The position numbers were made by a program, and so were the translations under genes. From Gordonia polyisoprenivorans (GTDB taxonomy: Bacteria; Actinomycetota; Actinomycetes; Mycobacteriales; Mycobacteriaceae), in contig NZ_CP072203.1 in assembly GCF_017654315.1 (NCBI RefSeq), positions 2,170,001 through 2,234,000 on the forward strand: a DNA stretch of 64,000 nucleotides. The letters run 5' to 3'. The number at the start of each line of letters is the position of its first letter. The stretch's first letter is position 1. Below, piece by piece: positions 7,703 to 62,681 of this stretch. The notes under the pieces were generated by a model. The model was not told the DNA's origin, made no database searches, and worked only from the letters and a program-made list of their open reading frames with translations.

Positions 7703-7774
7703 TCCCCCATGGTGTAATCGGCAACACTTCTGATTTTGGTTCAGGCATTCCAGGTTCGAGTCCTGGTGGGGGAG
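7703..7774 (+). tRNA. tRNA-Gln (anticodon TTG)
   Basis: The acceptor arms TCCCCCA (7703-7709) and TGGGGGA (7767-7773) pair perfectly. The T arm is CCAGG-TTCGAGT-CCTGG, and the anticodon stem TCTGA/TCAGG closes a 7-base loop with TTG at 7736-7738, reading CAA. The D arm GTGT...ACAC is intact. The 3' CCA is not encoded (GCCC follows), so it must be added after transcription. Confidence 0.95.
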
Positions 7775-14731: not shown

Positions 14732-16395
14732 TCACGCTGACACACCGGCCTGAGCACCTGGCCCATCCAGACCCAGCGATCGCGCGGTGACGGCAAGTGC
14801 GTCATGGACCCCGTCGACGGTCCGCGGCGGATTCGACTGTGCGGGAACGGCGGCGGCCATCACCTCGTGCCACAGCGCACGCCAGTGGTCGGGGAACGCG
14901 CGCCGCAATACCTCGATCATGATCGGCACGGCGGTCGACGCCCCGGGAGAAGCGCCGAGTAAACCCGCGATCGATCGATCCGCGCTGACGACGAGTTCGG
15001 TGCCGGTCCGCAGTACTCCGCCCCGGTCCGTATCCGGGGTGACCAACTGTGCGCGCTGACCTGCGGCGAGCATGTCCCAATCGGCGGGATCAGCTCCGGG
15101 GTAGAAGTGCTGGAGTTGCGCGAATTTGGTCGACTCACGGGCGATCAGCTGCGATACGAGATATCGCACCAGCGCGAGATTGTCTCGGCCGGCGGCACTC
15201 AGCGTTCGCAGGTTGTGCCACCGCAGTGTCGCGAAGAAGTCGGTCCAGGCGCCGTGTGCGAGAAGCTTGGTGCTGAAGGTGGCGTACGGGCCGAACATCA
15301 GATAGGGCGTGCCGTCCACGACGCGTGCGTCCAGGTGGGGAACCGACATCGGCGGGGCGCCGAGCGGAGCTTGGCCGTACACCTTGGCCTGATGCTGTTG
15401 AACCACCGACGGGTTCGCGCACCGGAAGAACGCCGCGCCCACCGGCAGCACCCCGTAGCCGCGGACCTCGTCAACGCGTGCGCGCTGCAACAACGTCAGT
15501 GCCTTGCCGCCCGCGCCGACGAAGACGAATCGCGCGGTGATCTCGAATCGTTCACCGTCAGAGGTCCGTCCGCGAGCGGCCCACCCGCCCTGGGAATTCC
15601 GACGCAGCGTCCTGATTTCGTGATCACAGGTGACCGTGCCGCCGGTGCGCGTGCTCACGGCGAGCATCTCGCGGGTCAGCGCGCCGAAGTCGACGTCGGT
15701 GCCGTCGGCGACCCGCGTTGCCGCGACGGTTTCCTCGGAGTGGCGGTCGGCCATCACCAAGGGCGCCCACCGGGCGATCTGTGCGCGGTCTTCGCTGTAC
15801 TCGACATCGGCGAAACATGCTTGCCGTTTCAAGGTTTCGTACCTGCGCCGCAGATAGGTGATGTTGCGTTCGCCGAATACCACATCGAGATGCGGTGTTG
15901 CCGAGACGAATCGGGATGGTTCGACGAGTCCATTGTCGGCCAGGTACGACCACCATTGCCGGGTCGCCAGGAACTGCTCTGCGATACCGACCGCGTTCGC
16001 CGGATCGGTGGGGTCCGGCATTGTGGGCGTGTCGCCCAATTCCCTTTGCGCGTCTTTGCGGTTCGATGTCTCCCTGGCCGCGTTGTCGTCGGTCACGATA
16101 GCTCCGCTATCGCTCCCTCCTCCGCCTTGCCAGGAAACCATCGACCCCGCAAATCCATCGCAGAGGAATTGGGCCACACGCCCTTGTTGAGCTCGCAGTA
16201 TCCGCTGTGGCCGGTACCCGCGTTGTTCCAGGCATTGCTGCTTTCCTGGGCCACGCCCGATCCACGCTCCACAACGGTTGTACGCCAATCTGGTTGGAGA
16301 ACGGCGAGCATCGATGCGAGCGTGGACGACATGATTCCGCCGCCGATCATGAGAACGTCGGTCGGCGCGAGGGTGCGATATCGGTGACTGGGCAT
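14732..16395 (-). pseudogene. mqo: Malate:quinone oxidoreductase, interrupted by a 159-bp palindromic element
   Basis: Mqo is a peripheral membrane FAD enzyme that oxidises malate and passes electrons to quinone. The N-terminus (from ATG 16395, AAGGA site 5 bases upstream) has the FAD motif [10 protein letters not shown] and the family segment [11 protein letters not shown] up to CELN. The rest, from TPTMPDPTDPANAV onward, is in another frame and begins after the 159-bp repeat at 16025-16183. In the first frame translation would stop at 16093. Removing a net 152 bases restores ...CELN-Y-TPTMPD... and a protein of about 503 residues, the normal length. The gene as it stands cannot give a full-length enzyme. 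Confidence 0.85.
16025..16183. mobile_element. 159-bp palindromic repeat inserted in mqo (copy 1)
   Basis: The element starts GGGCGTGTCGCCC and ends with its near-complement GGGCCACACGCCC. The similarity of the two halves extends through most of the length to a central hairpin GATAGC-TCC-GCTATC. A second full copy of the same 159-bp length lies at 61173-61331, about 87% identical by my count. TTGT flanks both sides (16021-16024 and 16184-16187) and may be a target duplication, although restoring the mqo frame by removing one TTGT plus the element does not work, so the boundaries need checking. It has no credible coding capacity and would need a transposase from elsewhere. Confidence 0.75.
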
Positions 16396-24437: not shown

Positions 24438-25622
24438 TCAGGTCAGCGCGACCAGCAGTGCCACGACGATCACGATGACGGCGAGAAAGACCACCGCGCC
24501 CACGATCACGGCCACACGGGTGCCGGTGCCCTGCGGTGACACCCGAGCCTGCGGATGCGGAACCGGCTGCGGCCCAACCGGAAAGCTCACCTGCGGTGCC
24601 CCCAACTGGGGTGCGCCCAACTGGGGTGCTCCCATCTGGGGTGCTCCCATCTGGGGTGCGCCCATCTGCGGTGCGCCGGTCGCGGTGCCCACCGGCGGGA
24701 TGTAGGTGACCGGTGGGAGTTGTCGGCCGATGGTGACGTGCGGGTTCACCGCCGCCGGTGGATTCGGCATCGACGGCGCCGAGGGTATCGGCGGTGCCGC
24801 CACGATCCGTCCCTCCAGGGCGTCGGTGGCGGCGTGCGCCAGCTCGCCTGCGGTGACGAACCGCTCGGCGGGATTCTTCGCCATGCCGCGTGCGACGACG
24901 GCGTCGAACGGGCTGTGCAGGATCGGCGGCGGCGAGTTGAGGTGTGCGGCGACGAGGACCTGGAGGTCGCCGGCGCCGAAAGGTGCCGAGCCGGTGAGGC
25001 ATTCGACGAGAACACAGGTCAGCGCGTAGATGTCGGTGGCCGGTGTCGCGATGTTGCCCGCACCGAAGCGTTCCGGTGCCATATAGGCAAACGATCCGAC
25101 GGCCGCGCCGGTGTCGGTGAGCCGCGGATCGGTGGTGGTCTGGGCCAACCCGAAATCGACGAGGTAGGCGAAATCGTTGGTGTCGATGAGGATGTTGTCG
25201 GGTTTGACGTCGCGGTGCACGAGCCCGGCGGCATGCGCGGTGTCGAGTGCGTGGGCGATCTGCTCGATGATCGACACGGCGCGGTCGGGTGCCAGCGGGC
25301 CCGCCGCCAGGAGCTTGCGCAAATCGCCCCCGCCGGCCACGATTCGCATGTCCAGGAACAGGAATCCGTCGATCTCGCCCCAGTCGTGGATGGGGATCAC
25401 GTGGGGATCGCTCAACTGTGCCGCCATCCGCGATTCGCGCAGGAACCGCTCGCGGAACAGTGCGTCACCGGCGAACTGCGGAGACAGCAGCTTCAACGCG
25501 ACGGTGCGCCCGCGACGGGAGTCGCGGGCCTCGTAGACCTCGCCCATGGCGCCACGGCCCAGCAACCGTTGCAGGGTGTAGTCACCCAGAACGGAGCCGC
25601 TGCGGTCGGCGGGGTCGTGCAT
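24438..25622 (-). CDS. Transmembrane serine/threonine protein kinase (Pkn type)
   Basis: A 394-residue Hanks-type kinase: glycine loop GRGAMG (22-27), Lys44 in VALKLL, HRDVKPDN with D138, and DFG at 156-158, followed by an AxxPERF-like activation segment. After the kinase domain comes a Pro-rich linker with a five-residue repeat (GAPQM/GAPQL, about residues 311-341) and one transmembrane helix near the C-terminus (about 366-392), with almost no extracellular sensor. It therefore resembles small anchored mycobacterial Pkn kinases. ATG at 25622 has GGAGGA upstream. Its regulon cannot be told from context. Confidence 0.85.
   Translation of the reverse strand: MHDPADRSGSVLGDYTLQRLLGRGAMGEVYEARDSRRGRTVALKLLSPQFAGDALFRERFLRESRMAAQLSDPHVIPIHDWGEIDGFLFLDMRIVAGGGDLRKLLAAGPLAPDRAVSIIEQIAHALDTAHAAGLVHRDVKPDNILIDTNDFAYLVDFGLAQTTTDPRLTDTGAAVGSFAYMAPERFGAGNIATPATDIYALTCVLVECLTGSAPFGAGDLQVLVAAHLNSPPPILHSPFDAVVARGMAKNPAERFVTAGELAHAATDALEGRIVAAPPIPSAPSMPNPPAAVNPHVTIGRQLPPVTYIPPVGTATGAPQMGAPQMGAPQMGAPQLGAPQLGAPQVSFPVGPQPVPHPQARVSPQGTGTRVAVIVGAVVFLAVIVIVVALLVALT
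24591..24680 (-). repeat. 15-bp tandem repeat in the kinase linker
   Basis: Six consecutive 15-base units of the form CTGGGGTGCKCCCAW run from 24591 to 24680 on the plus strand (units 3 and 4 identical, the outer ones diverged). On the coding strand each encodes one GAPQ(M/L) pentapeptide, so copy-number change would keep the frame. Confidence 0.85.
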
Positions 25623-60223: not shown

Positions 60224-60295
60224 GTCGTTCGTGCGGTCGTCGTCGTTCGTGCGGTCATCGTCGTTCGTGTGGTCATCGTCGTTCGTGTGGTCATC
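60224..60295 (+). repeat. Four-copy 18-bp tandem repeat upstream of the LpqU-like gene
   Basis: GTCGTTCGTGYGGTC recurs at 60224, 60242, 60260 and 60278, exactly 18 bases apart (copies 3 and 4 nearly identical). It lies in the divergent gap between efeU and the lipoprotein gene, closer to the latter. Confidence 0.8.
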
Positions 60296-60351
60296 GGGGA
60301 GAGGCCGACAACGAGGTGCAATACGCGTGGTCCACACGCGCAGGAGGGGTA

Positions 60352-61134: not shown

Positions 61135-61170
61135 CGCAAAGCCATCGCAGAAGAATCGGGAGACATGCCC
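61135..61170. repeat. 36-bp tail copy of the palindromic element
   Basis: These 36 bases are identical to the right end of the full copy (61296-61331), CGCAAAGCCATCGCAG...GACATGCCC. Only TT separates the tail from the start of the full element at 61173, so this looks like the remains of a tandem or nested insertion. Confidence 0.8.
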
Positions 61171-61172
61171 TT

Positions 61173-61331
61173 GGGCATGTCTCCCGATTCCCTTTGCGCG
61201 TCTTTGCGGCTCGATGGCTCCCTGTCTGCGTTGTCGTCGGCGCCGATAGCTCCGCTATCGGCGCCTCCTCCGCCTTGCCAGGAAACCATCGCCTCCGCAA
61301 AGCCATCGCAGAAGAATCGGGAGACATGCCC
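61173..61331. mobile_element. 159-bp palindromic repeat upstream of eno (copy 2)
   Basis: Starts GGGCATGTCTCCC and ends with its exact complement. The centre is a perfect 12-bp hairpin GGCGCCGATAGC-TCC-GCTATCGGCGCC. Same length as the copy in mqo, about 87% identical. It begins 54 bases after the lipoprotein stop and ends 67 bases before the eno start, so it may serve as a terminator and lies upstream of the eno ribosome site and perhaps its promoter. Confidence 0.78.
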
Positions 61332-61334
61332 TAG

Positions 61335-62681
<1,347 letters not shown>

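Follow-up and report, generated by a model that had tools for sequence, protein, structure and literature searches.

The window, a 64,000-nucleotide stretch of the Gordonia polyisoprenivorans genome (C1:2170001-2234000; the genome is G000 below), contains two copies, A and B, of a repeat unit (Table 1). Each copy is 159 bp long and the two are 87% identical, exactly as a sequence-only reading of the window had noted when it described two full copies of equal length and about 87% identity. That reading also placed one copy in a gene and the other between genes, and this holds: copy A lies inside a gene for malate:quinone oxidoreductase (mqo), and copy B is bordered on one side by a gene with a match to SLT_2 (transglycosylase) and on the other by eno, the enolase gene. 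The terminal inverted ends and the central hairpin that it had pointed out were recovered as well, the terminal inverted repeats (TIRs) of copy A being 19 nt long and 95% complementary and the central hairpin of copy B having 12-nt arms that are 100% complementary. When compared with shuffled sequences, the predicted fold of copy A had a z-score of -7.7 and was better than 200 of 200 shuffles, and that of copy B (folded within a 226-nt stretch) had a z-score of -7.1, with 0 of 200 shuffles as good.

Table 1. Coordinates of the repeat copies, their cores and the adjoining genes, in positions of the window.
Feature	Position	Strand	Remarks
Downstream part of the interrupted malate:quinone oxidoreductase (mqo) gene	14732..16024	-	Mqo profile 72-466
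Copy A, 159 bp, inside mqo	16025..16183	+	Flanks TTGT on both sides, TA not preserved
Core of copy A	16074..16133	+	Covariance model R1, 90.7 bits
Upstream part of the interrupted mqo gene	16184..16395	-	Mqo profile 3-61
Right-end remnant of another element, adjoining copy B	61135..61170	+	Stands alone in relative G027
Copy B, 159 bp, between transglycosylase-like gene and eno	61173..61331	+	Left flank TT, right flank TA
Core of copy B	61222..61281	+	Covariance model R1, 71.4 bits
eno (enolase), with copy B in its upstream region	61398..62681	+

The two parts of mqo match separate stretches of the Mqo profile and lie in different reading frames, and copy A therefore interrupts the gene; partial matches around C1:3154573 mark a second mqo-like locus. 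The repeat has no gene of its own. Open reading frames do run through the window copies, but the core at the centre of the unit is 60, 61 or 63 bp long among elements, which breaks any shared reading frame, and a peptide encoded by the core was ruled out on these grounds. Elsewhere in the window we noted an 18-bp tandem repeat (60224-60296; 4.1 copies, 96% matches), a 15-bp tandem repeat (24591-24677; 5.8 copies, 91% matches) and a tRNA gene (7703-7774), the latter being the sole Rfam match at the gathering threshold within the window.

Copies, flanks and an empty site

A search of the complete genome (6,033,879 bases in one contig, C1) returned eight matches at E ≤ 0.001, namely six full copies, a lone end of 37 nt at C1:4619472 and a weak core-only match at C1:2351997. 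With four full copies outside the window in addition to A and B, the repeat is not confined to the pair first seen; neither these four nor the remnant adjoining copy B had been noted in the sequence-only reading. The dozens of copies that had been predicted are not reached in this genome, though one relative has at least 17 core matches. Three of the full copies (C1:1404205, 2003319 and 2961317) are 195 bp each and contain a common 36-bp internal insert, and these insert-bearing copies are 98-100% identical to L004. The insert (L004-L006) is itself a hairpin repeat and resembles a hairpin repeat in other members of the genus (L033, L034, L041-L045). The occurrence of this marked version at three places provides good evidence that the element has moved. 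The empty site in a relative, proposed as a check by the sequence-only reading, turned up in G031, in which mqo is continuous and devoid of the element, the net difference of 161 bp corresponding to 159 + 2.

Flanks were analysed in 67 copies from 66 loci of seven genomes (G000, 6; G027, 17; G033, 3; G048, 16; G030, 9; G019, 12; G025, 4), a non-random sample in which 60 loci were taken from the listed matches to the core model, copy-rich genomes first. To place the ends, eight end patterns drawn from the same data were matched fuzzily, with up to 4 mismatches, and the best match was taken; with this procedure both ends could be placed in 67/67 copies, and the element measured 159-161 bp in 58/67 despite the eight kinds of end. 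TA flanks were present on both sides in 38/67 copies, on one side in 24/67 and on neither side in 5/67. A TA target site duplication is accordingly found for the MITE family as a whole, with none at copy A, which is among the five, and one side at copy B, which has TA on the right only. After the TA, each of the eight end types starts with G, such that an element inserted into a stop codon at its TA would regenerate TAG. The junction TAG was itself the stop of an open frame of 240 codons or more in 21/67 junctions, versus 7/67 and 4/67 in the other frames and 41/604 at other TAG sites, a cut-off that was picked after inspection of the data; at 120 codons the corresponding values were 25, 16 and 11 of 67 and 93/604.

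The region upstream of eno was compared in the 24 orientable loci among 30 that were fetched, 330 nt being examined in each. The present genome has the remnant plus the full element, G031 has an element that lacks its left end, and G027 has the remnant only; the other 21 of the 24 loci gave no good match to the core, the end or the right arm in these 330 nt, the best right-arm match having at least 7 mismatches of 20. Since the state in G027 could alternatively have arisen by recombination between two direct right-end copies, only mqo counts as a clean empty site. Copy B stops directly at TAGGCTTTG (61332-61340). Of the 21 loci that lack the element, 7 likewise have this sequence upstream of eno, and in G027 the lone remnant precedes the same TAGGCTTTG that lies before eno. 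As TAGGCTTTG resembles a -10 box, the insertion of copy B may alter the eno promoter.

Insertion sequences with matching ends

The end pattern TAGGGCRTGTCTCCCAA was detected, with at most 2 mismatches, in 34 of 59 genomes of the genus, and the matches listed mark out elements 943-979 bp in length, of which two lie in G000 and others in G016, G031 and G002. The two in G000 (C1:2336702-2337679 and C1:2951330-2952308) measure about 980 bp; in one of them 315 codons form an uninterrupted open frame, which is broken up in its counterpart. IS5 family-model tests were run on two elements: the protein of L050 (G000) matched NF033580, the IS5 family, with 259.4 bits, as well as DUF4096 and DDE_Tnp_1, and L057 (G031) matched NF033580 with 144.2 bits and DDE_Tnp_1, with DUF4096 in its first frame. 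IS5-family insertion sequences with DUF4096 and DDE_Tnp_1 (NF033580) go by the label IS427 group. The right ends of the IS5 elements in G000 agree with the MITE end over 17 nt and their left ends do so with two mismatches, while in G031 the ends of the IS and of the MITE L017 share 20 nt. For G027 (17 core copies), the matches listed include no IS whose ends correspond, though the MITE ends of this genome are IS5-like.

These data make a strong case that the repeat is a MITE with IS5-type ends that targets TA, and it probably borrows the transposase encoded by a larger transposon that resides in this genome. Under the mechanism that we propose, the 159-bp unit would be a non-autonomous MITE devoid of a gene, the ends of which would be recognised by the resident IS5-family DDE transposase (of the ~980-bp IS with ends TAGGGCGTGTCTCCCAA); this enzyme would then move the MITE into TA dinucleotides, duplicating the TA. 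The IS5 transposase as the actual mover is what we infer here, next to the copies, ends, flanks, empty site and marked version observed above. The MITE resembles the IS5-family (NF033580) elements in its ends and TA flanks and differs from them in having no transposase and in its centre, as the core model gave no match at E ≤ 0.1 in seven IS5-type loci (L050, L051, L054-L058). It uses IS5 ends and may or may not be a deletion derivative of the IS.

Two other movers have to be weighed against the IS5 transposase. One is a RAYT (Y1 HUH transposase), which would move a REP/BIME-type element as single-stranded hairpin DNA. The sequence-only reading had left the choice between a MITE and a REP element and had asked for a transposase or RAYT with matching ends; its MITE half is borne out by the copies, the TA flanks, the empty site and the IS5 elements with matching ends, and its REP half is not. 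Like REP elements, the repeat has hairpin form, and its size and intergenic copies would suit as well, but its inverted ends are long and correspond to those of DDE insertion sequences, it is flanked by TA in most copies, and PF01797 (Y1) was found in 0/59 genomes of the genus, with 5/14 control genomes positive. This largely refutes a RAYT for the genus, and we give the idea next to no credence. The other is the IS630 element that starts at C1:5308708, the sole PF13358 match in the genome, which is of interest because a core with IS630-type ends exists in G023 (see below). Its left end reads TAGTGTCGCGCGTCGTAA, unlike the end TAGGGCRTGTCTCCC that the MITE has in common with the IS5 elements, and this IS630 element is very unlikely to be the mover in this genome.

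One core under different ends

The central ~60 bp of the unit form a core, GCnGCGTTGTCGTCG-hairpin-CTCCTCCGCCTTGC, that is kept while the ends change: other Gordonia elements have the same centre and different ends. In G002, G023 and G058 there are elements 1121-1127 bp long whose ends resemble TAGTGTCGCGTGTCGTTAATT, and the two that were tested, L375 (G002) and L376 (G023), matched NF033545, the IS630 family, with 273.8 and 260.6 bits. The core-bearing MITE L040 (G023) shares 21 terminal nt with the IS630 element L376 at the left end and 17/21 at the other, which means that one core is found with IS5-type ends (G000, G031) and with IS630-type ends (G023). A weak core-model match in the IS630 loci L374 and L375 (17.2 bits, E 0.053) was judged to be due to chance. 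Between end types the terminal 20 nt have 61% identity and the core 83% (means over 622 pairs, a random part of all pairs), compared with 90% and 93% within an end type (164 pairs, likewise a random part). The core is common to different end types and genera, a feature that the sequence-only reading, right about the MITE, had not seen. The retention of a core across transposase families appears to be new, the MITE itself being of a known kind.

Elements of 60-85 bp that have the same kind of end and lack the core were also found (L060 in G027, L061 in G032, L064 in G004), none of the three giving a core-model match, and in G027 six pairs of ends lie 61-85 bp apart versus 14 at full length among the 45 end-pattern matches listed. 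As such core-less elements occur, the core is not strictly needed for movement; the three loci are potential natural controls for the core. In Micromonospora, core-bearing elements of ~165 bp have ends like TAGAGCGACCGGCARTAGG (L134, L105; G260/G330), and no IS with such ends was seen among the matches listed.

The range of the core was determined with a covariance model (R1) built from 24 distinct cores, the 96-bp insert-bearing form being omitted. R1 matched at least 25 of 59 genomes of the genus, with at least 17 matches in one genome, and at least 47 of 397 genomes of the order, belonging to 26 of 85 genera, counts that may be too low given that 93 candidates per genome were scored in the genus scan and 13 in the order scan. 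Four of the 47 genomes are Gordonia, and 19 match weakly (best E-value above 1e-5). A 24-base pattern, GCGTTGTCGTCG-(8-38)-CTCCGCCTTGCC, was present in at least 120 stretches of the genome collection, with 80 loci among the matches listed, in genera that include Nocardia, Rhodococcus, Nocardioides, Pseudonocardia, Micromonospora, Kribbella, Streptomyces and Actinomadura, and in a few Bacillota MAGs. The non-actinobacterial pattern loci (L122, L133, L151, L152, L166, L173, L174, L192) all appear to be metagenome-derived. Inverted arms exceeded the 99% shuffle level at 60 of the 76 loci with enough flank; the 16 below that level include L133, L152, L166, L173 and L174, with L122, L151 and L192 not among them. 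Owing to this origin and to the weak arms at several loci, the Bacillota matches need contamination checks. L174 (a Kofleriaceae MAG), which has both the pattern and a model match (32.7 bits), was counted as chance, its arms not being inverted.

The exact 24-base pattern was absent from viral contigs, and viral carriage was set aside. Phage sequences gave 7 records, the best with E 0.1 and none covering more than 27% of the query, and plasmids gave 90 records at E ≤ 10 and only 2 at E ≤ 0.5 (best E 0.2, at most 15% covered). A literature search confined to open-licence papers found no description of the repeat under Gordonia MITEs, IS5/IS427 MITEs in Actinobacteria or palindromic Micromonospora MITEs, and one may still be in print; fragments of the core sequence led only to open-licence papers with unrelated titles.

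Structure of the core and its possible role

In the alignment of 24 cores, the hairpin stem had 20 double-change cells compared with 4.0 in shuffles and at most 2 when the partner was slid, and the number of further pair types was reached by 27/500 shuffles. A wide alignment was then assembled from 77 of the 107 loci L095-L201 (84 matches, 82 distinct), omitting 12 Gordonia loci and 18 others, several of them from genomes already represented. Here 242 double-change cells were counted versus 74.7 ± 9.3 in shuffles and at most 52 in slid versions, in an alignment fitted to the model and composed mostly of sequences chosen by an exact pattern that fixes the unpaired strands and not the stem. Two of the five covariation measures were not extreme, namely pairs with double change (10 versus 8.8; 56/500 shuffles) and further pair types (31 versus 26.8; 23/500). 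In the five inner apical pairs 368/376 cells were Watson-Crick, with 2 G.T and 2 A.C; over all 12 pairs there were 816 Watson-Crick, 41 A.C, 6 G.T and 58 other cells, most of the A.C cells coming from a single position that pairs poorly (columns 31 and 82). G-U pairs are usually tolerated in RNA helices, and a covarying stem with almost no wobble pairs suggests a structure that would form at the DNA level. The purine strand folds ~1 kcal/mol better than the other strand, and a strand-specific fold was dismissed on account of this small difference.

We propose that the inner ~60 bp would be a separate conserved module, consisting of two well-kept unpaired strands around a short, variable paired stem. 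It would act in DNA as a folded hairpin or cruciform and would have no part in end recognition; our best guess is that a protein common among bacteria binds it and thereby promotes the persistence or spread of the element. Alternatively, the structure could be transcribed, as a terminator, processing site or attenuator of the sort reviewed for ERIC, and the strong predicted RNA fold and the long open frames that often stop at the element edge would be in keeping with this. The near absence of G-U pairs from the covarying inner stem, on either strand, speaks against an RNA, as does the outcome with Rfam, which gave no match over the element in the window and, with Rfam 15 at 8 loci, two sub-gathering matches that both lie outside the element; we consider a transcribed structure improbable. 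A weightier alternative is that the core has no function and belongs to one old MITE, the ends of which drifted or were exchanged while the core was kept by common descent and recent spread. Common descent is indeed indicated by the nearly constant length across end types and by the arms adjoining the core, which look alike by eye, and the existence of core-less elements fits a dispensable core too. Neutral descent is not an easy fit to unpaired strands that are kept while the stem turns over with compensation in 26 of 85 genera of the order, an objection that is limited by a wide sample picked largely by the exact pattern fixing these very strands. We regard a functionless core as a real possibility, albeit not the favoured one.

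Taken together, an IS5-moved MITE with a conserved inner module that would act as a DNA structure is a highly probable explanation of the data as a whole. More tentatively, and with the odds against it, the core could be a portable DNA-hairpin module that does not depend on the transposase family and has been combined with ends of the IS5, IS630 and other types across Actinomycetota, and possibly in Bacillota, because a protein conserved widely in bacteria recognises it and helps the elements to spread or survive.

Several known repeats are comparable. RUP of Streptococcus pneumoniae, for which mobilisation by IS630-Spn1 has been proposed (PMC2229807), is likewise short and gene-less, targets TA and has ends like those of a resident IS; it differs, as far as the relevant part of that source goes, in being 107 bp long, in having been described for one species and for IS630 only and in having no functional DNA motif reported. 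The Gordonia MITE, by contrast, has IS5-like ends in this genome and a core that is common across end types and genera. Correia/NEMIS of Neisseria and ERIC of enterobacteria are also short repeats with TIRs and a terminal TA, and they are set apart by their description, the same part of the source giving other hosts and describing no core across end types (PMC2229807).

What distinguishes the present family is the retention of one structured core through a switch of the ends, and hence likely of the transposase source, between at least two transposase families. Bacterial MITEs are usually described for a single host and a single parent IS. If the core is under selection, it would point to a host factor that is exploited by many gene-less elements, with the motif offering a direct handle for a search, and it would also provide an explanation for a widespread class of near-palindromic repeats in the genomes of actinobacteria.
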